Positions 5,722 through 60,030 of a stretch of 64,000 nucleotides of DNA are shown here, in pieces; the first letter of the stretch is position 1, and the number at the start of each line of letters is the position of its first letter. The stretch spans positions 992,001 to 1,056,000 of the forward strand of contig JADILM010000005.1 of assembly GCA_016617785.1 (NCBI GenBank), written 5' to 3'. The notes beneath the pieces were generated by a model. The model searched no databases, was not told the DNA's origin, and saw only the letters and a program-made list of their open reading frames with translations. This DNA is from Sporobolomyces roseus (lineage: Eukaryota; Basidiomycota; Microbotryomycetes; Sporidiobolales; Sporidiobolaceae). A program made the translations under genes and the position numbers.

Positions 5722-6895
5722 ATGTCAATCGATCCTTTGCTCAATGCACTGATCCACGCCAAGGCCGAGGATCCCATTCACGACGACATGCTTCAGAAAC
5801 AACGTGACAAACTCTTGAAACGGGACCCGATCCGCTCACCTCACATCTACTACGAAGATACCAGTAGCACTGTAACAGGTTCAGCGATCTCTCCTATCCT
5901 CTATGGGAGGTGTGTCGTGTGCGGGAAGCCTTGTAATTCGAAATGTTCTGCTTGTTCTTCAAACGGTACTCAATGGATGTACTTCTGTGGGAAAGAACAT
6001 CAGATGCTCGTGAGTGCTCTCTGCTGATACTTGAGGGAGAAGGGAGGAGTGAAAGCTGATTCCTTCGCATTGGAACTGTTCAGATTTGGCCTCTTCACAA
6101 ACGAGTCTGTGGAAAGAGATCGACTCCTTGGTCCTGGCCTCCCCTCACGAAGAAGGAACTACAAGAGATGATCGATCTCAGCGTCATTCCGTGCCGCGAT
6201 CATGAAACGGGAGGCGTCTCGACTTGGTCCGAAATCTACAAGCGAAACATGATTATTCACGCTCCTCGTCTCTGGGCTATGTACAGACATGGAAACTTCT
6301 CGAAACACTTCGCAGTGAGTCAGGCTCGCTGCATGTCGCTAAAGAGAGCTGGATACTAACGGTCTTACCGTCGCAGACCCTCCTCGCCAAAAGGCTCGAA
6401 CCAGCTGATGGTTCGCCTCTCAATCCTGATCAACACGGCTCAGGAATCGTCGGTCATCGCTCTGACGCGTGGAGGACGTTGGTCAGCAGCTCAAACTTCT
6501 TGAATCGTGATCCTGAATTCGAAGAAATGATGGATCTCCTCGTCAAATACCCTTTCAACTTCCTCGCAAACTTCGAAGACTGTCAGATCGAAGAACTTGC
6601 ATTCAGTCACAACCTCTCATGGTGGAGTGACCTACAGCATCACCTCGTCATCATGCTCTCCTTCGTTTGTTTGTGTTGGCAGCGCGGGATCTTCACAGTC
6701 GAATACGAGATCAACGAATATCAGAAGCTCGAAGCCTATCGTGATCACGCTTACGAAGAAACGATGAAGTACTGCCGAGAAGTGATCAAACCAGTCGACG
6801 AAGAAGTCGCGAAGAAGCTCGCATGGAAACTCATTACACCTCTCGTCAGGAATCATTCACAAATGAGGGCTACAGATTCATGTCCAACTATGTAG
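5722..6895 (+). CDS. MYND zinc-finger protein, tandem paralog 3
   Basis: Exons 5722-6009, 6084-6314 and 6377-6895 (345 aa). An in-frame ATG at 5656 exists, but MSIDPLL at 5722 is preferred because paralogs 4 and 5 begin with similar MSxxD peptides. The N-terminal ~65 residues contain RSPHIYYED, resembling SPYIYYE in paralog 5. The finger follows with CVVC, CSAC, YFCGKEH and HKRVC. The C-terminal region carries NFLANFE, WWSDLQHH, AYEETMKYC and EVIKP. It is nearest to paralog 5 on the opposite strand at 21.3 kb: shared GTQWMYFCGKEHQML and KRSTPWSWPPLTKKE. This implies that the inverted fifth copy arose from this member. Function unknown. Confidence 0.83.
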
Positions 6896-17447: not shown

Positions 17448-19980
17448 ATGTCGAACCTCGATGCGAAGGACATCAAAGAACAAGAAGCTTTCGAGCAACA
17501 CCAAAACGAGAATGGAATCTCACAAGCGGAAGATGGAGGAATCGTCGACCGCGCAAAAATGGAGAAGAGATTGTTGTGGAAGCTCGACGCTAGGTTCTCA
17601 ATGTAAGTATTCACTTGTTCTCTCTCTCGGCATTGTCAGTCAGAGGCAAGTTAGAGGAAGGAGACGTTTGAGGCGTCGGAGCTTTTTTCGCCAATTCTCC
17701 CGTTTTCTCGCACGAGACGATTCGCTGACTCACTTAAATCGTTCTCTTTTCGTCGATACAGCTTGATCATCATCTACATCTTGAACTAGTAAGCTCGAAG
17801 TGATGATCGTTGTCGTCGTTAGAGCTTTTGAGCTAACTCCGAGTTTCGGCTTTGCAGCATCGATAGGAACAACTTGAGTGCTTCCAAGGACCACGGGGTC
17901 GTCGAAGACCTCAAGCTCAAGGGATCCGAGTACCCCACACTGCTTTCTGTGAGTTGCTAAGGGAGTTTGATCAGATTTCGACCAAATTCCTTCGTTTTTC
18001 TTGCCCTATCGACTCCGTTCGACTCCCTACTGACCCAGCTTCGTTATACGACCTTAGATTCTGTATGTGGGCTACATCATCATGCAAATTGTGCGTTCAT
18101 AACGTCCCTCATCGTGGTAAACGTGGGCTTAACTGATTCTCGTTTTCGTTTCTAGCCGTCAAACATGATCGTTCAATACACTGGACGTCCTTCGATCTTC
18201 CTCCCCACCTGTATCGTCATCTGGGGAGCCATCTCCGTCGCGACTGGCTTCACACACAACTTTGAGGAGGCTTTGGTCACTCGTTCGTCGTTTTTTTCGT
18301 TCTTCTTCCTCTCCTCGACTTCCCTGACGTCCCCTATCTTTATTTCTCGTCCAGGTTTCTTCCTAGGTTTTGTGGAAGCGGCTTTTTTCCCCGTACGTCG
18401 TGCTGTTCTTTGACGAGGGAACAATCAGACGACGAATTCTTGAGCTTTCGTTCATTGTTTCGCGACGTTCCCTCCGGTTCCTTCGGCGCCTCCGAGTCGT
18501 TCTTGCCATACTGACTGTCATACCTGGCTCGCGCTTCTCGCAGGGTGCTATCCTCCTTCTGTCCAACTGGTACCGAAGAAATGAGCTTGGAGTGCGAATC
18601 ACCATTCTCTACTGCGGTTCCCTCATCTCCAACGCCTTCGGTCCTCTCATCGCCTATGTAAGCACCTCTCACACTCCCCTGCAGAGCAGGCGTTTCACGC
18701 CTGCCCACCTCAAGTGTTCGACGCGGCTTGAAGTTGACGAAAGAATTTTGTTCTTCGCAGGGTATCCTGGAAACGATGGAAGGGAAGGCAGGACTTCGCG
18801 CCTGGCAATGGTTATTCACAATCGAAGGCTGCCTGACCATTCTTGTTGGACTCATCGCCGTCGTGGTCTTGCCCGATTTCCCGAAAAACTCTCGAGGCTT
18901 CACCGCTCAAGAAAAACATCTAGCCGAAACCCGAATGACGGAGGACACCGGTATGAAGGATGAAACCAAGGTGTCAACCTGGGTAGCGCTCAAGATGGCC
19001 ATGAGCGATTCCAAGCGTGAGCTAATTTCTTCTTTCTTCAGTTTTCGTCGCTCGCTCTAACGCGTTCTCTAACCTCTTCGCAGTCTGGGTAATGGCATTC
19101 ACGCTCGTCTCCTTCACAATCTCCCTCTCATTCAACCAATTCTTCCCTCAACTCACCTCGTCCCTCGGCTATGCGAAGCAATTCTCTCTCCTCCTTTGCG
19201 CTCCTCCCTTCGCTTTCGCTGCCATGTGCGTTCCGGCCTCCTCTCAGCGTCTTACTGATAGCGTCTTGTAGCTGACAAGCTTCTCTGACTATCAGCTGCG
19301 CCTTCTTTGTCTCGCGACACTCCGACAAGACGAACGAACGCTATTTCCACATCATCATTCCTCAATTTATCGGTATCATCGGTTTCATCATCGCCATGTC
19401 GACTCAAGCTTGTGAGTCGATCCTCTGAACAAGATCGTTGTTTCCCTTTCGCCTTGCGCTGACGACGTTGTCTATTACCGCAGTCGGAGCTCGTTATTTC
19501 GCCCTCTTCCTCCAGGCTCAATCTTACTCTGGATTCGTCTGCTTCCTCGCATGGGTCTCAGGAACGTGAGTCGAGCTTATCTAGTTCTCCTCGACTCGTA
19601 TAGACAAAACTGACTCGTCTCGTTTCGCTTCGTTTTTATCTTTCGTTCTCTACTTCCTCCCTTCTCGCGCGTTCATCAGCTTTGCTCGCCCCGCCATGAA
19701 GCGTGCTATCTCCATCGCCTTTGTCAACGCTTTCTCGCAACTCGGTAACGTCGCTGGAGCTTACTGTTTCTCGAGCGATTGGGCTCCGACCTACGCCAAA
19801 TCCTACGCTATCTGCATCGGTACAATGGTCTTCGCCATCGCCGGTTCGACCTACCACCGATACACGCTCAAGAAGTTGAACAGGGAGCTCGAAGCTCGCG
19901 ACGAAGCGGCGACAGAAGGTACCGAGCACAAGGGATTGAACTCTCTCGATTTCCCTGCTGGCTACCGCTACACTCTCTAG
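17448..19980 (+). CDS. MFS transporter, anion:cation symporter (Dal5/Tna1-like) family
   Basis: Twelve exons: 17448-17602, 17762-17788, 17858-17948, 18058-18090, 18156-18282, 18355-18392, 18544-18657, 18761-19016, 19084-19225, 19296-19411, 19484-19565 and 19680-19980 (493 aa). Landmarks are LNYIDRNNLSASK after TM1, SNMIVQYTGRPSIFLPTCIV (TM3), RFFLGFVEAAFFPGAILLLSNWY (TM4) and the central GLRAWQWLFTIEG. These are the hallmarks of the fungal allantoate/nicotinate-type permease family, with about 12 membrane helices and a cytosolic loop containing RGFTAQEKHLAETR. It imports a small organic anion with protons; the substrate is not predictable. Exons 4-6 are duplicated downstream at 20704-21017. 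Confidence 0.88.
18069..18382 (+). repeat. Source copy of a 314-bp direct duplication
   Basis: Spans the end of MFS exon 4, intron 4, exon 5, intron 5 and most of exon 6. It is repeated at 20704-21017 (offset +2635) with a single mismatch seen at 18341/20976 (T versus C). Confidence 0.9.
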
Positions 19981-20703: not shown

Positions 20704-21017
20704 GGGCTACATCATCATGCAAATTGTGCGTTCATAACGTCCCTCATCGTGGTAAACGTGGGCTTAACTGATTCTCGTTTTCGTTTCTAGCCGTCAAACA
20801 TGATCGTTCAATACACTGGACGTCCTTCGATCTTCCTCCCCACCTGTATCGTCATCTGGGGAGCCATCTCCGTCGCGACTGGCTTCACACACAACTTTGA
20901 GGAGGCTTTGGTCACTCGTTCGTCGTTTTTTTCGTTCTTCTTCCTCTCCTCGACTTCCCTGACGTCCCCTATCTTCATTTCTCGTCCAGGTTTCTTCCTA
21001 GGTTTTGTGGAAGCGGC
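20704..21017 (+). pseudogene. Orphan MFS transporter fragment (duplicate of exons 4-6)
   Basis: Copies 18069-18382 including both introns, with only one substitution seen. It lacks the first helices and everything after VEAA, where the sequence switches to unrelated DNA and the open frame soon stops. With no promoter or remaining transporter body it cannot make a transporter. Identity in introns as well as exons shows that the event copied DNA, not mRNA, and was recent or was homogenised by gene conversion. Confidence 0.85.
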
Positions 21018-21341: not shown

Positions 21342-22535
21342 CTACATGGTCGGAACGGAATCTGAAGAGACCATCTGAGAGTGTCGCTGAAGTAGAGGAG
21401 TGATCAAGTTCCACGCAAGATATTTCGCCATCTCCTCATCAATAGGTTTGATGACTTCTCGGCAGTACTTCATCGTCTCATCATAAGCGTGTTGACGATA
21501 CGCTTCCATCCTCATGTACTCGACGCTGCCGATTCCACGCTGCCAGCACAAACAGATGAACGAGAGAAGAATCGTAAGATGATGCTGAAGATCGCTCCAC
21601 AACGAGAGATTGTTGGAGAGTTCGTTGGGATTGAACGAGAGATCCCCTACCTGCCTCAATTCGAAGTGTGCGAGGAAGTTGAAAGGTTGTTGGACGAGCA
21701 TTGCGAGCATTTCTTCGAATTCAGGTTCGTTGTCGAAATACTTGCCAGACGTGCCACTGACGAGCCAAGCTTTCGATCTCAAGTCTACGAGCATCGATGA
21801 TTCCGTCGAAGCGAGTGGCGATCCATCTGAGGGTTCGAGTTTCGTTCCGAGAATGGACTGTTCAGCTTCTCACTCGACTTGTCAATAACTCGGGGCAATC
21901 GACCTGACGACTAGGAGCTCAGAGAGCTTACCTTGAACATTGAGTCGAGCATTCCAGGCTTGTAGTCGACCATCATCGACGGAAACATCTCCTTGATTCC
22001 ATCTGCGAGCCATTCCTGGCAATTCGAAGTCGCTCCGTCCGGTCCTTTCACAGGTCGAGTACTGAGGTGGAGCATCTCAGTCATTTCCTTCTTCGTGAGC
22101 GGAGGCCAAGACCAAGGAGTTGATCTCTTTCCACAGACTCGTTTGTGAAGAGGCCAAATCTGAACAATTTCGATGCGAAGGAATCAGCTTCACTCCTCGT
22201 TCCTCCCTCAAATGACAACAGAGAGCACTCACAAGCATCTGATGTTCTTTCCCACAGAAGTACATCCATTGAGTCCCGTTTGAAGCGCAGGCAGAACAAC
22301 GAGAACTTGTTGACTTCCCACAGACGACGCAGCGCCCTGAGAGCATGGGAATCGATGACGAGACTGATGTAGTGCTGTTACCTTCCTCGTAGTAGATGTA
22401 AGGTGAGCGTTTCGGTTCTGCTTTCATAAGTCTGTTGTAATAATCTTCAATCATTTGTTGCTCCTTGAGATCTTTGCAGTTCGCTGGGTCGGTAGCGGCT
22501 TTCATGATAGCTGTAAACATTGGATCATACGACAT
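21342..22535 (-). CDS. MYND zinc-finger protein, dispersed inverted paralog 5
   Basis: Exons 22535-22233, 22159-21932 and 21857-21342 (348 aa), with both phase-0 introns at the same positions as the four tandem copies 13-18 kb away. The start MSYDP was chosen over an in-frame start further upstream by comparison with paralogs 3 and 4. The finger has CVVC, CSAC, YFCGKEH and HKRVC. The C-terminal block shows FNFLAHFE, LWSDLQHH, AYDETMKYC and EVIKP, ending SVPTM. The linker after the finger differs from the others, with extra Met-rich sequence (SMMVDYKPGMLDSMFK). It is closest to paralog 3. Function unknown; it resembles an expanding gene family rather than a conserved housekeeping gene. Confidence 0.83.
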
Positions 22536-29586: not shown

Positions 29587-30606
29587 TCAAAACAAAGCTA
29601 GCCTAATCCCTCTCTTATCGCACTCCTCCTGGACCTCTGACAAATCTGCCCACGTTGAGCGACTCTCCAGGGTTTTGAGTCCCGTCGACGGAGGGAGACT
29701 TTGCACAACCTCTAGAAGCAGTGCGGTGTCAACACTGCGGTCGAGTGATAGAGTGACGACCGAGGGAGGGATCGAGGCGATGAATCCAAGCTTGCGAAGA
29801 AGATCGACACAGACACCGCCAGCTTCTGACAACACGATCTTTTTGAGCGTTTTGAGATGCTGGAGCTCTACGAGGATGGCTTCGTAGCGATTCGGTGGTC
29901 CCGTGAACGGTGGAGTAGATTTTCGGGCGGGAAGGTGGTCCGAGTAGAATTCGAGGTGTCGAAGGTTTGTGAATGCGGCAAGTGTTAGATCCGTGTCGAA
30001 GAAGCGACCACATATGACTTTGAGCGAAGTGATGCCAGCCGAGATAGGAGTGAATGGGGACTTGAGAGTGAGGCGGTTGGATTCGATTTCGAGACTCTTG
30101 TACGCAGCAGTAAGAGGAGAGGTGACGCGAGGATACCAGTGCTTGACGTGTACCGTGAGAGCTGACGCTTCGGCGCATTGCAGCTTAGCGATAGTTGTAT
30201 CGAAGCCGTCGAGCTCAAGCGTGTCGACGAGGAAGAGTGTTTTGAGTTCGGGAAAACCTTTCAATACTTTTTGAAGGTTGAAACTCCAGGAGGGATCCTC
30301 TGACCCAGCCGTTGATGCGATCGTCGAGATTTGGACGGTGTGGACCAAGGCAGCGAGGGACGGGTTCTCCTGCATCGCTCGAAGCGTTTCGCGCGTTTCG
30401 CCGAACATCCTTGGCTTCAAACCCTGCTTGCTTGAGGCGGGTAGCCTTGGTGTACCCTTGACCACAATCTCGACTTTGTAATAAAGGAGAGGTCGAGAGA
30501 TATTGAGGATGATCTTCGAAGCTAGGCAGCAGTTGGTGAGCGACATCCTGTCATCGAGAGCTTCGAGAACGATTCGAAGGACGTCCAACGGGAGGGTGGG
30601 AATCAT
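29587..30606 (-). CDS. F-box protein with degenerate leucine-rich repeats (copy A)
   Basis: Single coding exon, 339 aa. The N-terminus reads LPLDVLRIVLEALDDRMSLTNCCLASKIILNISRPLLYYKV, a typical fungal F-box: helix, Cys/Ser turn, then RPLLY. The rest alternates Leu-rich strands and helices (ELKTLFLVDTLELDG, LRHLEFYS, LKTLKKIVLS), suggesting an irregular LRR substrate-binding half. F-box proteins recruit targets to SCF ubiquitin ligases through Skp1. A 5' UTR intron is likely, since the acceptor-like CTTCCTCCAG is shared with copy C at 58999. The coding part is much diverged from copy C although the upstream DNA is nearly identical. Confidence 0.78.
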   Translation of the reverse strand: MIPTLPLDVLRIVLEALDDRMSLTNCCLASKIILNISRPLLYYKVEIVVKGTPRLPASSKQGLKPRMFGETRETLRAMQENPSLAALVHTVQISTIASTAGSEDPSWSFNLQKVLKGFPELKTLFLVDTLELDGFDTTIAKLQCAEASALTVHVKHWYPRVTSPLTAAYKSLEIESNRLTLKSPFTPISAGITSLKVICGRFFDTDLTLAAFTNLRHLEFYSDHLPARKSTPPFTGPPNRYEAILVELQHLKTLKKIVLSEAGGVCVDLLRKLGFIASIPPSVVTLSLDRSVDTALLLEVVQSLPPSTGLKTLESRSTWADLSEVQEECDKRGIRLALF

Positions 30607-31120
30607 GTTAGTCGTCGAAAGCGTGCAACGAGGGTGTGTGGAGTATTCGAACGGAAGATCTGGAGGAAGCGAGGAAAAGAGTCAGTTCGAAACTCCTTTC
30701 ATTTTCGAGCAATCAGAGTTAGAGACGTACGTGCGATAGCTACGGAGAGCTGTTTATCCTTCGAGCTGATCTTGATGGTTCTGGAGAGTCGTGGGATCAA
30801 GGGGGAAGGCTCGAAAGATGAAGATTTCGAGGTGGGAAGGAAGAGCGAGGGAGGATAGGGAGAAGAGCTGGGGTAGTTGTGGTTCTGTATTCGATTGATC
30901 TGGAGCTACTTGCAGGTCGATTCGAGTGATATGAGAGAATCAGAGTGAACGGAAGGAGGACAAGCGAGAAATCGAGAGCAAGCGTCCGCTTGTCTCCTCT
31001 CGAGCGATATATTGAGATAGCTGAAGATCGTCTAGCTATCGATCTCTGGTAACGGGTGCAGCTGGGATCAAATTGTTGCGCTTGGTCTCAAAAATAATCG
31101 ATTCTCATGCCTCGAATCGC
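30607..31120 (-). other. Upstream region of F-box copy A, part of duplicated block
   Basis: From about 30655 rightward this matches (inverted) the DNA at 58465-58939. It ends at the hAT-element insertion. No gene seen. Confidence 0.6.
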
Positions 31121-31128
31121 TTCGCAAG
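31121..31128 (+). repeat. 8-bp target-site duplication, left (TTCGCAAG)
   Basis: Identical to 31871-31878 on the other side of the element, and present once (reverse complement CTTGCGAA) at the empty site 58465-58472. Confidence 0.93.
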
Positions 31129-31870
31129 TAGTGATGTTTCGGCGGCCGTAGCGTACCGTAAAGACTCGATTTACTACGTACGGGCTACGCTACGGGTGCT
31201 TTACGTAACCGTAGTGATCCGTCTCCGTAACGGTCCGTAGGCGTAGAGAACGTAAACCGTAAAGATTTTTTACGGCGGGCAGAGGCCGCTACGAGCCAAA
31301 CAGCGCACAAAATGATTGAACTCGTTGCGGAATATGATCCTGAACACGAGAAGGCAGCTACGAGAGAATACAGAATGAAGAAGCATATGGTCTTCGCGAG
31401 AAAACGATTGAAGAAAACGGAAAGTTGACGAAAATCGGGTTTCACTGGACTTCAGCGACCGCGACCGCTTCATTTGAAGCTTACTAGTACCAACCGCTAC
31501 CCGAAATTGACGTGATAGCAAGTAGAGGTCGAAAACTCGAAGTTTCACTGACTCTCTCGACCAATTCTCAACTTGCGAAACGCGAAAACTCCTTTAGTTC
31601 GCCCTCTTGCGTTCCGGCTCATCTACCAATGACGGATTCCATCCTATAACTGTTCCACAATCGAGACTACTGAGCGATCACTGTGCTCCCTCGCTCAAAG
31701 CCGTAAAATCCGGCCGTAAGTTCAAAAATTACTACGTACGGCGACGTCTACGGGGCCGATTACGGGCGTATTAAAACCCTACCCGTACCGTATGAGACCC
31801 GTATAATTACGCCCGCGAGCCGTACCGTAGCCTTCCGTTAAGGTTGCGGGCGTAAAATTTAACATCACTA
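31129..31870. mobile_element. Non-autonomous hAT-like DNA transposon (742 bp)
   Basis: The ends are inverted repeats beginning TAGTGATGTT and ending AACATCACTA, flanked by a perfect 8-bp duplication. TIRs of the TAGnGnTG form and 8-bp TSDs are characteristic of the hAT superfamily. Subterminal ~130-180 bp on both sides are crowded with short CCGTA/TACGG words in both orientations (31141-31280 and 31700-31855), as expected for transposase binding sites. The central ~420 bp is different in composition and carries only short ORFs, such as 38 aa at 31312-31428. No transposase is encoded, so it would need one in trans. The matching empty site in the duplicate block confirms the boundaries. Confidence 0.92.
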
Positions 31871-31878
31871 TTCGCAAG
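31871..31878 (+). repeat. 8-bp target-site duplication, right (TTCGCAAG)
   Basis: Perfect copy of 31121-31128 directly after the element's terminal TAGTGATG inverted repeat. Confidence 0.93.
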
Positions 31879-32250
31879 GTTGAATCTGCTCTCTCCGTTC
31901 AGCCCGCAACAAGCGGATGAGCAGATAGGAGGACTAGATTGACTCTCAAACATGACCAGGAAGGTGGACCAGAGTGAAAGGCTCTCAATAGACAAAGACG
32001 ATTCGAATTCAGACAATACAATTCGCAACCTCCCAATACTCCCCTCTTTCAACCGTTCCGTCAACTCGATTTCAGCATCTTCGGCATTACTCCCTTCTTT
32101 CCTTGCGCTCTGCTGGATCTTGCCCGATTCCTCACTCCAAACTATCGATTCTCGATTCGACGTTGCCTTCGAATTCTGAAGGAGTGTAAGCTCAAGTCAG
32201 ATCTCGTCGCCTTGCCAGTAGGAATAGTGCGAAGCTCACCACTAGGTGTC
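31879..32250 (-). other. 3' flank of F-box gene B
   Basis: Duplicated in inverted orientation at about 58105-58464. No coding features. Confidence 0.6.
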
Positions 32251-33297
32251 TCACTCTTCATCGAAGCTCAACCTGATTCCTCGCTTACTGAACTCCTCGA
32301 CGACTCCCTCCATTTCCTCCGTCTCGCTCAAACAATTGAACCTCTTGAGATTACTTGTCGTGGGGAGATCTCGAAGGAAAGGGAGGAGGTCGTCAGAGGT
32401 AAGCTTGAAGGCGAGGGATAGTTGAGTGAGGGCAAGAGGAAGTGAACGGGCGAGCAGTCCAGATTGAAGAAGGACTTCGAGATCCTCCTCTCGCGCTGTA
32501 CCGTGGAGTATCAGGATTTGGAGAGTAGAAAGGTTGTCGATGGTGGCAGAAATGCTCTGAACGGTTATCGAGGGAGTTCGAACCGAAAGTCGAAGGGAGA
32601 GCCGCTCGAGATGCTGGAAGAGTGAGAGGGTTGTCGGGTTGTCGAGAGGAATTTCGAGTTGCCGAAGCGTGCGTAGAGAGTGACTTAATCGCGCCTCTAC
32701 GTCAATTTGCTGTCCAACCGTCGAGAATGGGATCCATTGAAATCGTTCATAGGCGCCTCGATACCTCTTTCGGACGCCCAATGATCCAGGTACAACTAAA
32801 GAGAACGCCGGTACAGGTGCTCGGTGTTTCTCGTCATCATTCCTACGACTCTGTAACGAATGAACAGCTTCATCCACGTCGGCGAGCAGGGAAACGTTGT
32901 CCAAGGTGACGAGCCTCGTCGAGGGGAACGTTCCAACGATTTCCTTGACGAGTTCCTCGAGGTCTACTTTGTGAGCCTTGCACTCGTCGAGACCGGCCAA
33001 AGCTCCCACTACTCCAAGAATTTCGACGTGTTGCACTAATTGACGAAGGAGAGGGGTCCGCCTTAACGTCGTGAGCAGTACACGAGACGCCTGCTCGATG
33101 AGGATATGAGTCGTGAGGATGCCGCTTGAGTCGAAAACCGCATTCTCTGAGATGTCGAATCTGATATCTTTGTAGAGGAGAGGTTGAGCGATGGTGAGGA
33201 ACGTTTTTGAAGTAGAACAGGATCTAGCGAGATCGCTAAGAGTGGAGAGGTGGCCGAGAATGATGCGAACGAGTTCAAGAGGGAGGTAGGGTACCAT
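32251..33297 (-). CDS. F-box/LRR-like protein (copy B, duplicated)
   Basis: Single coding exon, 348 aa, start MVPYLPLELVRII. The F-box is LVRIILGHLSTLSDLARSCSTSKTFLTIAQPLLYKDI. Leu-rich segments follow (LRQLVQHVEILGVV, LVTLDNVSLLAD, LRQLEIPLDN, LERLSLRLSVR, LQILILHG), consistent with an irregular LRR horseshoe. Expected role is SCF substrate adaptor. It is nearly identical along its whole length to the plus-strand copy at 57049-58104, with scattered replacements and a different C-terminal end (FDEE versus FDEKWDI). Upstream, both copies share a probable 5' UTR intron (donor GTAAGTCCCC, acceptor CTCCAG). Confidence 0.82.
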   Translation of the reverse strand: MVPYLPLELVRIILGHLSTLSDLARSCSTSKTFLTIAQPLLYKDIRFDISENAVFDSSGILTTHILIEQASRVLLTTLRRTPLLRQLVQHVEILGVVGALAGLDECKAHKVDLEELVKEIVGTFPSTRLVTLDNVSLLADVDEAVHSLQSRRNDDEKHRAPVPAFSLVVPGSLGVRKRYRGAYERFQWIPFSTVGQQIDVEARLSHSLRTLRQLEIPLDNPTTLSLFQHLERLSLRLSVRTPSITVQSISATIDNLSTLQILILHGTAREEDLEVLLQSGLLARSLPLALTQLSLAFKLTSDDLLPFLRDLPTTSNLKRFNCLSETEEMEGVVEEFSKRGIRLSFDEE

Positions 33298-34201
33298 GGG
33301 GAGAGTTGAAGAGTCGAGAGGGGAAGTGAGGAGAGAGAGACCTGGAGGAGAAGGATGAGATCAGCAGAGCGAGAAGGGCGAAGAAGGCAAGAGGGGACTT
33401 ACGAATGTGCGGAGAATCGATGCCACCAACCAAGACAGGTTCCTCGATCTTGGATAGAGGGAAGGAAGGGAAGAGAGAGAAAGAAGAGAGGAAAGGAAAG
33501 AGACGAACCCTTGACCAAACGAGAGACCGCGGAAACTCCGAAGCGACGACGACGACGAAGTGTTCCTTCTCATAGCAACGAAGTGTGTGCTGCCGTCGGG
33601 CGGTGGCCTCGAAGTCGTGAAACGAGCAATGAGACGAGAATTCTGAGGCAGCGATTTCGCAAAACGGTTTTGACAGAAATTTCACAAAGCATCTCTTGTT
33701 CTGTAGTCATGGCGCATTATCAGCTCATCGCTATCCTCCCAAGTGTAGAGGTAGTAGACTCACTACCAAACTTTCCCATCTCCCATTCAGACGGAGTGAG
33801 ATCCCCCTCGTTCTGTATTCCGTTTCAACTTCTCCCGCATTTCCCTGTTGAGCACAACTCAAGCTGTTCGTGGGACTCAACGAAAGATCGAGACATCGGG
33901 AAAGGACATGAAGAGGTTGAGCGAAGGGCGCGAACGCGAAACAGGGATAGACGTCGGAAACGCTGAATCGGTCGACTTCATTGATCCGCTGACTTCCCTA
34001 ATCGTCGATTATACAGACCCACCCTCAAAATATATCAGCAGCAATCAAGAAGCGTTGAGAGACGTACAGAGACCAATCATCCTGAATTTGTCCGAATGAT
34101 CCGATTCTCCTTTGCGATCCCGATAAGTTCCTTTCTTCTACGAGATGATCCGTCCCACTCGCTCGCTCGAGGTCGGAAGTTAGCGGAACAACTGAGCTGG
34201 G
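33298..34201 (-). other. Upstream region of F-box gene B
   Basis: About the first 270 bp belong to the duplicated block. A TTTCGCAAAAC word sits near 33652. Open frames on both strands are Ser/Arg-rich and look non-coding. Confidence 0.5.
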
Positions 34202-36461: not shown

Positions 36462-39400
36462 CTAACCGAGAACTTTCCCCCTCCTAGTCTGAGCCTGTTC
36501 GAATGCTCTCCTTCCTCCGAAACTCGCATGATCCGGCGAAAACGAGATCGACATCGCCTCGAAACTTCTTGCGACTTCATCCTCCTCATCCTCATTCATC
36601 GGGCTGTTCCCTCCTCTCTTATGCATTCCAGGAACCGCCAATCCTCCCATTAAATAACTCTTCTCATCCTCAGTTTCTGAAGCTTGAGAGGTCGAGGCAT
36701 CGGTAGAATCGTCGTCTGTAGCAGTATCGGAATCGTCCGAATCATCGTCGTCGGCTCCTTCCCATTCTCGATAGATCTCGTCGATGTAAACTGAGGAGAG
36801 AGGGAGCTTAAACGGGTCGAAAGGGAAGAAGGAATCCATTTCCTCCGCTACGAGGAGCTGACGAGGGGCTGCAGATGGAGTTTGAGGTCCGGGAGTCGAG
36901 GTTCCAGAGGTAGAACCGAGGGAAAGAGCGTTTGCGGTGAGAGTCGTGAGGAGGGAAGAAGTGGAAACGGATCGGAGAGGGGGCATAGGAGCGAGACCGG
37001 GAGTAGGTGGAACGGAGGAGGCTTGTTGTTGTGAAGATGAGTCGCGGTAAGAAGCGGATCGTCGATTGCCTTCGAGGATCGAGTAGCAGTACATGAAATT
37101 GGTTTTGTGTGCGATTGATGCGAATTGGGCGACGACGGGTTGAGCGCAGACCTGAAGAAATCCAATATATCAGCTCTGTATTGATCAAGAGAGAGAAAAA
37201 GAACGAAAGTGGAAGCTCACCTTGAGAGGATTGAAGCTAGAGTTGACAGCTTTTTTCAGCGTTTCCAAACCCATCATCCATTTCCTCCCTGCATCCAATC
37301 CAAGCAACCCAACTTCATCATCGATATCCTCTTCCTCCTCCAGCAGGTCTTTCCACCTGAAACAAAAGATATAAAACACTGCTTGAGAAACCGCATAAAA
37401 CACTGGTAATTCTTGTCCTCCTCCTCCTCCTCCTCCTCCTCCGTTTAACCTACTCCCTCCCGACCTCGCGAAATCATCCATCTGCCCTTCCAAATACTGA
37501 CACAAATGTCTCACTACCTTCCTCGTCATTCCCGCATCGACGAATTTCGCTCTCGCTACGAAACTAGCTACGTAACCTGCTGCCGCAACCCTCGTAACTG
37601 ATGGTGCATCGACATCGAACAATGCCCTCCCCAATAATACTCCAACGAAATGATCCGATGCTGAAGTGTCTTTCGAACATAGGTAGAAGAGAACGAATTG
37701 AACGTTCCTAGTTTTGAAAGTTCGGAGTAAAGTTCGATCGAAGATGTCGAGGAGGGTACGGAAGAGAGTCGTTCTACGTTCGAGTTGTTCTGCTGATGGG
37801 GGAAGGTCGAGTGGGGTTGGAGTAGGTTCTTTAGATCCGCATGGGGTGGAAGATACTGATTTTGGATCTCTGAATTCGAATGGAAACTCGATTGCTGTTC
37901 CTACTTGACCGAATTTGACCGTAGGAGTAGCGATAGAAGTAGTGGTCGAAGTCGAAGTGGGAGTAGGGGGAATAGTAGTAGATCGATTATCGTCGTGAGC
38001 TGAAGCCAAGTGATCCAAAACGACTCGTAAGATGCCATCCAATTTCGATCGGTTCTCCAACACTTTCCTTATCGCCGCTTCACTCATTTTCGCATTACCC
38101 TTCTTTGCCAATTTCGATGCGTCCTCATCATTAATCGGTTCAGGTTCATCATCATCCGAACTCAAATTCTCTAAATCTAGTCCTCCTCCATCCTCCTCTC
38201 CATCATCATCATCATCATCGTCCTCATCTGAATCTGAATCATCCGGATCTTCCTCCATGGGTCGATCCACTAAATCTCCCACAGCAGCCTTCAAATCGTC
38301 CAACCTCGTAACTTTCTTCTTCTCCAACAAGGCCGCTTCTCGTTGAGCTTCCATCTCTTCTTCCACTTCCTCCCAATCCTCAGGATCCCCTTGAATTTCG
38401 ACATCAATGTTGAGTGCACGTTCGACCACTAACGTCAAAACGTCCTCTGCTAATGCCGAACAGTATTCGGTCAAGGAGAGTAAATTGTCGATGTAACAAA
38501 TTTGAGCGGCTCGGACTTCTCGTTTCGAAGGGAAATGGAGGGCGAGGAGGGGGGAGAGGGAGGGAGAGAGAGTTGGAATGAGAGAGAGGAGAAGTCGGAG
38601 GAGGGAATGAATACGAGAGTAAATGAGTCGTCTAGTGAGATGAGGGAGTGCTGCAGGGGATGCGAGGGTATAAGGTGAACCTTTTCATTGCAAGCACAAC
38701 GGAAGTCAGTAGAGGTTTTTTTTGGCAGATCAAATTAGAAGTGAAAAGCTCTGCTCTTACGATATTTGAAACCTTTTACGCATTTATCCAATACAGCTTT
38801 CAACCATTCAGTTCTGGCACTCACTAACGCCCCAATGAACCTCATGTAAGCTACTACGAATGACTCTTCCGTAGTAGCCCATGGAACTGCAAGGATCGTT
38901 TCGACTAGAGGTTCATGTGATTGATCTAGTTTTGATACGACTGACGTGAGGGCGTCTAACCAGGTACGTAATTGAGATAGAGGAGTTGTTGAGGGTTGGG
39001 AAGAAGAGGTCGAGGCGGAGGAAGGGAGAGAGGAAGAAGAAGGGAGGAGGGCGCGGAATTGAGAAATGATTTCATTGTAAGATGAATTATCGCCCTGTTT
39101 GTCAAACACTCGGGTTCAGCGGTGCTAGGTGAGAGAGAGCGAAAAAGTGAAAGCTTACGTTGTAGCGTTTCTCGAATGCGTCATTGAGGAAAGCAGAGTA
39201 CATTGCTCTCCGATAGGGACCATTCGGTTCATTCGAGTTGAACTCTTTCGATTTCCCTTTACTGCCCCTCTCTCTCTTACTACTCTTGGTCGCATTCTCC
39301 TTCTCTTGCTTGACTCTGACACTCTTGCTTCTCCTTAGTTTTGGTTTTTCTTCTTCAGCGAGAGATTCTGATGGTCTCTGTCTTTTAGGTTTGGTTGTTG

Positions 39401-56527: not shown

Positions 56528-57048
56528 ATTGGTTGTTCGAAAGAAGAGGTTGTGAATGTGAAAAGTTTGCTGCAGTAGGAGAATCTACTCGTGTTTCAGG
56601 TTTCGTATACAGTCTTCGTCTCTATATTTCATCTACGTTAGGGTTTCGACAAAGAGGGTGAACGTATACAGGGAGTTTGTGCAAAGGCATCGTTTTTTCG
56701 AAAAAGCCGATACTTGGGGTGGTTTTCTTCTCTCTCTGAACGTCTCGTTCTTCTCGAGTGCCTCGCTTCCTTCTCATTCTGGAACATCTTTCGTCGTCGT
56801 CGTCGCTTCGGAGTTTCCGCGGTCTCGTTGTAAAGGGGTTCGTCTCTTTCCTTTCGTCGATTTCCTTTCCTTTCCTCTCTCTTCCCTAGATTCAACATTG
56901 AGGAAAGCTCTAGCGGGTCCCGGTATCGGATTCTACGTGCATTCGTAAGTCCCCTCTGATCTTCTTGACTCTTCTCGCTCAGCTGATCTTGCTCTCCTCC
57001 CCAGGTCCCTCTCCACTCACTTCCCCTCTCGACTCTTCAACTCTCCCC
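56528..57048 (+). other. Intergenic, LSC2 to F-box gene B'
   Basis: From about 56775 rightward it is part of the duplicated block and holds a probable 5' UTR intron (donor GTAAGTCCCC near 56949, acceptor CCCAG near 57004). No gene otherwise. Confidence 0.55.
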
Positions 57049-58939
57049 ATGGTACCCTACCTCCCTCCTGAAATCGTTCGCATCATTCTCGGCCACCTCT
57101 CCACTCTTAGCGATCTCGCTAGATCCTGTTCTACTTCAAAAACCTTCCTCACCATCGCTCAACCTCTCCTCTACAAAGATATCAGATTCGACATCTCAGA
57201 GAATGCGGTTTTCGACTCAAGCGGCATCCTCACGACTCATATCCTCATCGAGCAGGCGTCTCGTGTACTGCTCACGACGTTAAGGCGGACCCCTCACCTT
57301 CGTCAATTAGTACAACACGTCGAAATCCTCGGAGTCGTGGGAGCTTTGGTCGGTCTCGACGAGTACAAGACTCACAAAGTAGACCTCGAGGAACTCGTCA
57401 AGGAAATCGTTGGATCGTTCCCCTCGACGAGGCTCGTCACTTTGGACAACGTTTCCCTGCTCGCCGACGTGGATGAAGCTGTTCATTCGTTACAGAGTCA
57501 AAGAAATGACGACGAGAAACACCGAGCACCTGTACCGGCGTTCTCTTTAGTTGTACCTGGATTATTGGGCGTCCGAAAGAGGTATCGAGGCGCCTATGAA
57601 CGATTTCAATGGATCCCATTCTCGACGGTTGGACAGCAAATTGACGTAGAGGCGCGATTAGGTCACTCTCTACGCACGCTTCGGCAACTCGAGATTCCTC
57701 TCGACAACCCGACTTCCCTCTCGCTCTTCCATCATCTCGAACGACTCTCCCTTCGACTTTCCGTTCGAACTCCCTCGAGCACCGTTCAAAGTATTTCTGC
57801 CACCATCGACAACCTCTCTTCGCTCCAAATCCTGATACTCCACGGTACAGCGCGAGAGGAGGATCTCGAACTCCTTCTTCAATCTGGACTTCTCGCCCGT
57901 TCGCTTCCTCCAACCCTCACTCAACTATGCCTCGCCTTCAAGCTTACATCTGATGACCTCCTCCCTTTCCTTCGAGATCTTCCCACGACTAGCACTCTCA
58001 AGAGGTTCAATTGTTTGAGTGAGACGAAGGAAATGGAGGGAGTCGTTGAGGAGTATAGCAAGCGAGGAATCAGGTTGACCTTCGATGAGAAGTGGGACAT
58101 CTAGTGGTGAGCTTCGCACTATTACTACTGGCAACGGCGACGAGATCTGACTTGAGCTGACTTCTAGAATTCGGAGGAAACGTCGACTTCAGAATCTGCA
58201 GCTCGGCATGAAGGAATAGGCTAAGCTAGAGGGGAGCGCCCGGAAACAAGGGGGCCAAGTTCGTAGATAGTGAACTCGAGGGGTCGGAATGGTTGAAAGA
58301 GGGGATTGTTTGCGAGGTTGCGAATTGTTTTGTCTCAATTCGAATTGTACTTTGTCTATTGAAGCCTTCTACTCTCGGTCTTCCTGCTCGTCTTCGAGAG
58401 TCAACCTCATCCTCCTATCTGCTCATCCGCTTGTTGCGGGCTGAATGGAGAGAGCAGATTCAAGCTTGCGAAGCAATTCGAAACACGAGAATCGATTATT
58501 TTCGAGACCAAGCGCAACGATTCAATCGCAGCTGCACCCGGTGTCAAAGAGAGGCAATCCGCTTACCTCGAGCCACCTCAATATATCGCTCGAGAGGAAA
58601 CAAGTGGACGCTGCTTCCAGTTTCTCGCTTGTCCTCCTTCCCTTCACTCTCATCCTCTCATAACACTCCAATCGACCTGCAGGTAGCTTCAAGTCAATCG
58701 AATACAGAACCTCGAGTGCCACAGACCATCTCCGGATCCTCCCTCGCTCTTCCTTCCCACCTCGAGATCATCATCTTTCGAGCCTTCCGTCTCGATCTCA
58801 CGACTCTCCATAATCATCAAGATCAGCTCGAGACACACTGAGCTCTCTGTAGCTATCGCATGTACGTCGCTTATCCCGATTGCTCGAGATTTGGAGGGTT
58901 TTCGAACTGATTCTTCTCCCTCGCTTCCTCCAGATCTTC
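56775..58939 (+). repeat. Inverted segmental duplication, copy 2 (empty of the hAT element)
   Basis: Matches 30655-33570 in reverse orientation across promoter, F-box gene and 3' flank. It contains one CTTGCGAA at 58465-58472 where copy 1 has the transposon plus two copies. Ends were placed by eye: the right end coincides with a CTTCCTCCAG acceptor-like site, and the left is near the GTCGTCGTC run. Confidence 0.85.
57049..58104 (+). CDS. F-box/LRR-like protein (copy B', duplicate of copy B)
   Basis: Single coding exon from MVPYLPPEIVRII, 351 aa. The frame is open further upstream without ATG support, and copy B starts at the equivalent Met. The F-box (VRIILGHLSTLSDLARSCSTSKTFLTIAQPLLYKDI) is identical in sequence to that of copy B. 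Differences elsewhere are few, for example PLLRQ to PHLRQ and an altered C-terminus (FDEKWDI). Both copies keep intact frames, so they are likely both functional or very recently separated. Expected role is SCF adaptor with Leu-rich substrate region; target unknown. Confidence 0.82.
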   Translation: MVPYLPPEIVRIILGHLSTLSDLARSCSTSKTFLTIAQPLLYKDIRFDISENAVFDSSGILTTHILIEQASRVLLTTLRRTPHLRQLVQHVEILGVVGALVGLDEYKTHKVDLEELVKEIVGSFPSTRLVTLDNVSLLADVDEAVHSLQSQRNDDEKHRAPVPAFSLVVPGLLGVRKRYRGAYERFQWIPFSTVGQQIDVEARLGHSLRTLRQLEIPLDNPTSLSLFHHLERLSLRLSVRTPSSTVQSISATIDNLSSLQILILHGTAREEDLELLLQSGLLARSLPPTLTQLCLAFKLTSDDLLPFLRDLPTTSTLKRFNCLSETKEMEGVVEEYSKRGIRLTFDEKWDI

Positions 58940-58998
58940 TCTCGATTCTTTCCTCCATCACCCGCTTCCCTAATCCACTTTCTTATCCGCCCCTCAAT
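58105..58998 (+). other. Intergenic between F-box copies B' and C, with hAT empty site
   Basis: Duplicated block up to about 58939. The unoccupied target CTTGCGAA lies at 58465-58472. A 182-codon open frame at 58293-58841 overlaps sequence that is non-coding in copy 1 and is rejected as a gene. Confidence 0.6.
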
Positions 58999-60030
58999 AT
59001 GACCCCCGATCTCTCGACGGATATTCTTCGGATGATTCTCGAAGACGTCGTCGAAAAAGAGTCGCTCGCTCAATGCTGCCTCGCATCAAAAGCTCTACTT
59101 TCCGTCGCTCGTCCGCTTCTCTACCGCAGTATCGACGTTATGATCCACTTCGAGGAGGATTGGTCAAACTACGATGCGATCGATGAACCTTGGGCGGATG
59201 TGGTCTTCGAATTGGTTCCGCAATCGGCTTCATTGCTCGGATCTTTGAAAGGACATTCCAACTTGGTCAGTTTGATTCAGGAGGTGTCATTCACCTGTGT
59301 GGAGCAGAAGCATAGAAAGTACTTTGGCTCGTTGGGAGATTCGACGGATGTATTGGAGGAAATCATCAAGCTTGTTCCGACTTTGTCAGAAGTTACGCTT
59401 GTCGACCCAGTCAACTTCAGTGACGTCGATGCCGTAGTCCGCACGCTTCAACAGAGGAGTTCTCAGAACGTCAACCTTCATCTCGTACTCCTCAAACCGT
59501 TTTCGAAGGCGGCAGCACACTGGAATTTGAACGCCGCCTACTCGAGCATCAAGACCAACAATGGCAGCTTGACTCTTCACGACACTCTTGACAGAATTCT
59601 CCCTGCGACTCGCTCTCTCGTGCTCGAATGCTCGACAAATATGCACAAGTTCTCGCTTTCGAAATTCTCAGGCCTCGAACGCCTCGAATTGGTCTCTGTC
59701 ACTCCCTCGATCACTGGCGCATTCTCACTCAGTGGCATCTTCACGAATCTGAAACGTCTCTCCAAACTCAAATCCCTTGTCATTTCCGGTTCTCCTTCTC
59801 CCACTCTCGACCTCATGCTCTCTCCCGCTGGAATCGTCAAATCAGTTCCCTCTTCTCTCGTCATCCTTTCGATCAAAGTCGACGTTGGAGTCGACAAGAT
59901 TCGTAGGCTGGTCAAGAGTTTTCCGATGGCGACAAAGATTGAAACGCTGGGAATTTGTTCGCTCGAAGGGAATTTTGCGGAACTTGAGATGGAGTGCGAA
60001 AGGAGGAGGATCAATCTAGCACTTGCATGA
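58999..60030 (+). CDS. F-box protein with leucine-rich segments (copy C)
   Basis: Single coding exon from MTPDLSTDILRMILEDV, 343 aa. The longer open frame from 58891 crosses the probable 5' UTR splice acceptor at about 58932 and was not used. The F-box reads ILRMILEDVVEKESLAQCCLASKALLSVARPLLYRSI. The body has Leu-rich segments (LSEVTLVDPVNFSDVDAVVRTL, LERLELVSV, LKRLSKLKSLVIS, SLVILSIKV). It occupies the position relative to B' that copy A occupies relative to B, and shares copy A's upstream DNA, yet its protein is strongly diverged from copy A. Likely an SCF substrate receptor; target unknown. Confidence 0.78.
   Translation: MTPDLSTDILRMILEDVVEKESLAQCCLASKALLSVARPLLYRSIDVMIHFEEDWSNYDAIDEPWADVVFELVPQSASLLGSLKGHSNLVSLIQEVSFTCVEQKHRKYFGSLGDSTDVLEEIIKLVPTLSEVTLVDPVNFSDVDAVVRTLQQRSSQNVNLHLVLLKPFSKAAAHWNLNAAYSSIKTNNGSLTLHDTLDRILPATRSLVLECSTNMHKFSLSKFSGLERLELVSVTPSITGAFSLSGIFTNLKRLSKLKSLVISGSPSPTLDLMLSPAGIVKSVPSSLVILSIKVDVGVDKIRRLVKSFPMATKIETLGICSLEGNFAELEMECERRRINLALA

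Follow-up and report, generated by a model that had tools for sequence, protein, structure and literature searches.

A 742-bp non-autonomous DNA transposon of provisional hAT type in Sporobolomyces roseus, with two empty paralogous target sites

A 742-bp interval between two reading frames of Sporobolomyces roseus raises the question of what it is, which kind of enzyme once moved it, and whether it arrived before or after the spacer that holds it was duplicated. The window, meaning the whole 64,000-nucleotide stretch analysed, lies on contig C5 of the one assembly that was searched (22.4 Mb, 15 contigs). Among proteins that carry an organism name, those closest to its RRN3 reading frame (37185-38684) come from Microbotryomycetes such as Phenoliferia, Pseudohyphozyma and Microbotryum, at 51-56% identity, and a metagenome protein matches it at 97% over 83%, in keeping with a host of that basidiomycete class. 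The features on which the argument draws are given below in window coordinates (TIR, terminal inverted repeat; TSD, target-site duplication); f1 is the family of the element and f2 a second family that is taken up later.

31129..31870, plus strand: window copy of family f1, a 742-bp non-autonomous DNA transposon with exact TIR and TSD and two more full-length copies at unrelated sites
31129..31138, plus strand: left TIR TAGTGATGTT, exact and the same in 3/3 f1 copies
31861..31870, plus strand: right TIR AACATCACTA, exact and the same in 3/3 f1 copies
31121..31128, plus strand: left copy of the 8-bp TSD TTCGCAAG, exact
31871..31878, plus strand: right copy of the 8-bp TSD TTCGCAAG, exact
31146..31275, no strand assigned: left subterminal array of 9 CCGTA/TACGG words, homologous to the left end of f2
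31276..31700, no strand assigned: diverged f1 interior, in which a hAT transposase remnant is absent
31701..31829, no strand assigned: right subterminal array of 10 CCGTA/TACGG words
30673..33345, plus strand: paralogous flanks holding the f1 element, between the minus-strand reading frames 29587-30681 and 32251-33360
57001..58919, minus strand: gene and spacer paralogous to the flanks, inverted and uninterrupted
58465..58472, minus strand: empty target site, where CTTGCGAA stands once in the spacer of the inverted paralogue, flanked on either side by homologous sequence

Exact inverted repeats of 10 bp that span 300-1500 bp and are directly bordered by exact direct repeats of 8 bp occur at this place only in the window, and the same arrangement was found in none of 20 block-shuffled windows. 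CCGTA or TACGG is present 19 times in the element, always within the outer 200 bp of either side and never in the central 342 bp; the rest of the window, 63,258 bp, contains 26 such words, and other 742-bp stretches, sampled at 20-bp steps, hold at most two each. The original prediction, which had only the letters to go on, named the termini, the 8-bp flanks and the boundaries, the dense subterminal words and the missing transposase. These points are borne out by the exact 10-bp TIRs and 8-bp TSD at 31129-31870, by the position of all 19 words near the element ends, and by a tblastn comparison that detected no hAT coding remnant in the element.

At least three full-length copies of the family exist in the genome, namely the window copy on C5, C1:571152-571892 and C4:113193-113934, and end queries of 152 and 171 bp run at E values up to 10 recovered the same three; counts from the genome searches are lower bounds, and introns were left out of the search model. 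The two further copies, which answer the genome search that the original prediction had called for, occupy unrelated sites, have exact TIRs and are each flanked by a TSD of their own. Pairwise identities are 87.2%, 86.1% and 94.2% (a range of 86-94%), corresponding to 43-103 substitutions over 739-741 aligned bases; the 10-bp ends are identical in 3/3 copies and the TSDs are exactly 8 bp in 3/3 (TTCGCAAG, TTCGCATC and ACGAGGTT). When 38 fungal and other hAT proteins were compared with the copies by tblastn, the best E values were 0.17 (C1 copy) and 0.31 (window copy), and the C4 copy gave no match at E 1. The longest stop-to-stop frame of the window copy is 107 aa; those of the other two copies are 97 and 99 aa and run on the opposite strand. 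All three copies lie between reading frames as judged by eye; one site neighbours a mitochondrial-carrier-like frame and another lies a short way upstream of a protein-mannosyltransferase-like frame (both named by eye). The family shares with MITEs its length of 742 bp, the absence of a hAT coding remnant, the kept TIR and TSD and the location between reading frames; the high copy number of MITEs is not seen, with at least three copies found. A RIP-like excess at TCG was examined, and 6 of 75 window-specific differences were of that kind. Comparison with a plasmid collection returned no match, as expected for fungal sequence. A match to TAGTGATGTT..CCGTA at C1:2353529 was considered as a fourth copy and rejected, as it offers one end only and the word array is absent nearby; a search with the right-end pattern gave 14 hits, compared with 11 for the reversed pattern used as control, and was dropped.

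The surroundings of the window copy bear on the order of events. The original prediction had pointed to an empty site at 58.4 kb and had placed the insertion after the duplication. The site is indeed an uninterrupted single target, and the alignment showed one base difference beside it: the base after TTCGCAAG is C in both empty paralogues that are now known, and after the right TSD of the window copy it is G. The second of these, C5:1095148-1095625, was found by a genome search with the 58.4-kb spacer; it lies about 45 kb beyond the 58.4-kb empty site, has 82% identity over 479/501 bases and is uninterrupted, and in a three-way alignment each empty paralogue carries TTCGCAAG once, so that the predicted order draws on two empty paralogues instead of one. 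Identity between the 58.4-kb duplicate and the window flanks is 72-93% in the spacer (100-column bins) and 89-99% in the neighbouring gene (full bins), which makes the duplicate a diverged paralogue rather than a recently made copy. Because both 58465-58472 and the third paralogue are uninterrupted, the empty state is most plausibly the ancestral one, and the divergence of the flanks allows the insertion to be placed after the duplication, without a date. The simplest history is an insertion into one of three diverged paralogues. It is very improbable that the element was inserted before the duplication and that the two paralogues were later emptied by precise excision or overwritten by gene conversion. 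Parts of the paralogues are 95-99% identical and others 72-86%, as patchy conversion could leave them, but two of the three paralogues are empty and both have C after TTCGCAAG, both sites would need the loss of exactly the element plus one TSD, and hAT excision usually leaves footprints. On the preferred history of a single insertion after the duplication, one filled and two empty paralogous sites give the exact boundaries and the order of events without a second genome.

The paralogous gene cluster around these sites comprises window positions 29587-33360 and 56914-60030 as well as C5:1095148-1095625. One of its genes scores as F-box-like, falling just under the Pfam cut-off (21.5 vs 24.3 bits). 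A gene pair of the cluster is 95% identical over 1134 bp and its adjoining spacer 72-93% in bins; that the pair is more alike than its spacer suggests constraint or gene conversion.

As to the kind of enzyme involved, hAT TIRs often start with TAG, and the TAGTG start of f1 resembles hAT ends. Both the 8-bp TSD and the 10-bp TIR TAGTGATGTT are present in 3/3 copies, and the TIR falls within the 5-27 bp given for hAT elements in an excerpt of PMC3517528. We propose that f1 is probably a non-autonomous cut-and-paste transposon of hAT type whose past movement depended on a transposase that is now missing or has escaped detection; its membership of hAT is provisional, because it is read from the ends and the TSD, no matching transposase having been found. 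On this view the enzyme would act in trans: having recognised the 10-bp TIR and the CCGTA/TACGG arrays, it would cut the element out and reinsert it elsewhere through 8-bp staggered cuts, from which the 8-bp TSD would arise. The arrays would be putative transposase-binding sites, playing the part that AAACGG plays in Ac/Ds. Mobilisation in trans would have occurred repeatedly in the past, by an enzyme that may be missing or undetected today; the window copy was inserted after the duplication of its spacer.

Among known systems, the closest are the non-autonomous Ds and Ds-like elements of maize Ac/Ds (hAT), above all Ds-l4, as far as the excerpted sources describe them. Ac transposase binds AAACGG repeats within 200 bp of the ends (excerpt of PMC3260210). 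Unlike these elements, f1 has a different TIR and a different word (CCGTA), at least three copies, and no Ac-like partner with matching ends in the assembly. Ds1 is nearer to f1 in sharing no sequence with its partner, but the word is mostly absent from it (17/331 have three or more, in the part of the source available). Mar and Vege, hAT MITEs of Drosophila willistoni, are similar in size (610 and 884 bp), in their TIRs of 11 and 12 bp and in their 8-bp TSDs, and they too were assigned to hAT as a hypothesis, on the basis of ends and TSD, when no precursor was yet known (excerpt of PMC3517528). Mar differs from f1 in its many more copies and in its Buster-type target nnnTAnnn, which is described for the Buster group of hAT in excerpts of PMC3517528 and PMC10512250; the targets of the three f1 copies depart from it, their central two bases being GC, GC and AG.

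The genome was searched for transposases of the hAT type, with a dimerisation profile and a Puccinia hAT transposase, and of the KDZ type. The KDZ search gave no match, and neither did any of 14 control genomes. The hAT profile found one gene, on C12, and all five matches to the Puccinia protein are pieces of that gene. It belongs to an element of 4258 bp (C12:342738-346995) with a perfect 20-bp TIR (TAGAGACTAGCTATTTTGTA) and the 8-bp TSD GTTTGTGC, of which a genome search found no second copy. The gene is multi-exon and, with exons read by eye, has one in-frame stop before the last coding part, so the transposase may be non-functional. Its nearest relatives are hAT transposases of Sporobolomyces johnsonii (37% identity) and Puccinia (33%), transposase genes none of which is linked here to CCGTA-type ends. 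All 38 hAT proteins used above match the C12 element (best 1e-41), which is to be read with the fact that they had been found through it. The C12 element and f1 follow the same plan of an 8-bp TSD, a TAGAGACTAG start and arrays of a subterminal word. That this single element was the past engine of f1, tolerating different subterminal words, can hardly be credited, even though no other hAT transposase gene was detected, its TSD is of 8 bp and its TIR starts TAGAGA vs the TAGTGA of f1. Beyond those first bases the TIRs agree in little, a second copy of the element was not detected, and the words differ: CCGGG/CCGGT make up the arrays of the C12 element and CCGTA is missing from the 300 bp at each of its ends, whereas the f1 and f2 copies compared show the reverse, with no CCGGG and no CCGGT within 200 bp of either end.

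An autonomous partner with f1-type ends was not found in this one assembly (lower-bound counts, introns unmodelled), and the full-length hAT-encoding relative with the same ends that the original prediction had suggested looking for likewise failed to appear in it. The hAT reading put forward there gains from the hAT-like ends, from the 8-bp TSDs in 3/3 copies and from a C12 hAT element of the same plan, and stays provisional. Its further suggestion that the family could be active fares worse, given copies that differ by 43-103 substitutions, no autonomous relative found, and a sole detected hAT transposase with different ends and, as read, an in-frame stop; present activity of f1 is not supported.

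A pattern of three CCGTA words, with 105 genome matches against 13 for the reversed control, led to the second family, f2. By hand count, 17 of these matches fall in the three f1 copies, 57 in six f2 copies (5 of them in the C11 copy) and 31 elsewhere; among the 31, no pair resembling two element ends was seen, and many resemble coding repeats as judged from the letters. Two of the places, C9:769031 and C9:786314, in inverted order 17 kb apart, were tried as transposon ends and rejected once their surroundings had been read, because an inverted duplication of 1.7 kb (88.6% identity) contains both, and each has three words without an array. This duplication, C9:768327-770000 / C9:785376-787055, extends over at least 1.7 kb at 88.6% identity, its halves about 17 kb apart.

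Five f2 copies are 645-646 bp long and the sixth is interrupted by a nested insertion; the TIR is of 9 bp (TATGGTTGG/CCAACCATA) and the TSD is exactly 8 bp at 6/6 sites. Aligning the left end of the window f1 element with that of one f2 copy gives a score of 59 over about 115 bp (125 columns), which none of 1000 word-preserving shuffles reaches (maximum 44). The right ends are unremarkable, as 106/1000 shuffles reach their score; for the three other left/right pairings within and between the families the figure is 111 to 575 of 1000, and for f1-right with f2-left it is 168/1000. Judged by the left-end alignment, f2 is a sister family of f1, to which it is homologous at that end. The two might be branches of one undescribed lineage with 8-bp TSDs, whose transposase reads CCGTA arrays and accepts both TAGTGATGTT and TATGGTTGG, the engine having been lost from this genome or being housed in sister strains; we put this forward as a tentative and rather doubtful idea, under which recognition would lie in the subterminal array and not in the tips. 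With their left ends homologous, their tips different and no engine in sight, the two families would make it possible to test what a transposase recognises in a hAT-like end. Apart from that, f1 is another small transposon family in a basidiomycete.

The tips of f2 also bear on the superfamily. They read TATGG..CCATA, and the TATGG start fits the hAT end consensus poorly. The engine of f1 could in principle come from another superfamily with 8-bp TSDs, such as Zisupton/KDZ or an 8-bp IS3EU variant, and we regard this as unlikely. The f2 tips fit the TAYGG..CCRTA ends of IS3EU in rust fungi, Zisupton makes 8-bp TSDs (both in an excerpt of PMC12730594), and no hAT transposase with matching ends was found. 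Against this, IS3EU has 6-bp TSDs and TIRs of more than 30 bp (same excerpt), and the TSD is 8 bp in 3/3 f1 and 6/6 f2 copies, with TIRs of 9-10 bp. The f1 start TAGTG is furthermore like that of hAT elements, and the C12 hAT element starts TAGAG.

The nested insertion in f2 (C1:661017-662500, 1484 bp) has inverted repeats that are identical over the first 30 bp and over 42/50 in all (CTCTGTGAAAACG...), with an apparent 7-bp target duplication, GTTCAAT, judged against an uninterrupted f2 copy; tblastn found no hAT coding remnant in it (best E 0.44). An excerpt of PMC12730594 describes 7-bp duplications in the hAT7 elements of rust fungi.

Differences among the copies are unevenly spread. In the three f1 pairs, the ends differ by 6.1%, 7.8% and 2.5% vs 19.2%, 19.7% and 8.9% for the middle, with p-values of 8e-8, 2e-6 and 2e-4 that are too small, because the profile had been inspected before the cut points were set and the pairs are not independent. 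Seven of the ten pairs formed by the five uninterrupted f2 copies likewise show fewer differences in the ends than in the middle at p <1e-4, with cut points set after viewing the profile as for f1; the remaining three give p 0.04, 0.20 and 0.29. This pattern suggests that the ends were under selection during several rounds of movement, with a faster-changing middle as the alternative. The target sites may show a base preference as well. The Ac group of hAT prefers nTnnnnAn, and T at base 2 or A at base 7 of the TSD occurs at 11/20 positions in ten elements (p = 0.005), the share being 7/12 for f2 (p 0.016) and 3/6 for f1 alone (p 0.18).

As far as the searches go, f1 is new as a family and ordinary as a kind, the comparison having been made with literature titles and abstract openings. 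The original prediction had called the family undescribed, which holds within that scope: none of the titles and abstract openings listed names it.

Several other repeats were noted. An exact AACATCACTATTCGTAC is common to C14:2603, C14:30664, C15:42295 and C15:55492. Within the window, a near-identical 300-bp direct repeat, 18069-18368 / 20704-21003, lies 2.6 kb apart around transporter-like frames (by eye), and no LTR-type ends or target duplication were seen at this pair. An inverted repeat pair, 5892-6181 / 22062-22350, is 81-89% complementary and about 16 kb apart, and an RRN3 reading frame occupies 37185-38684.
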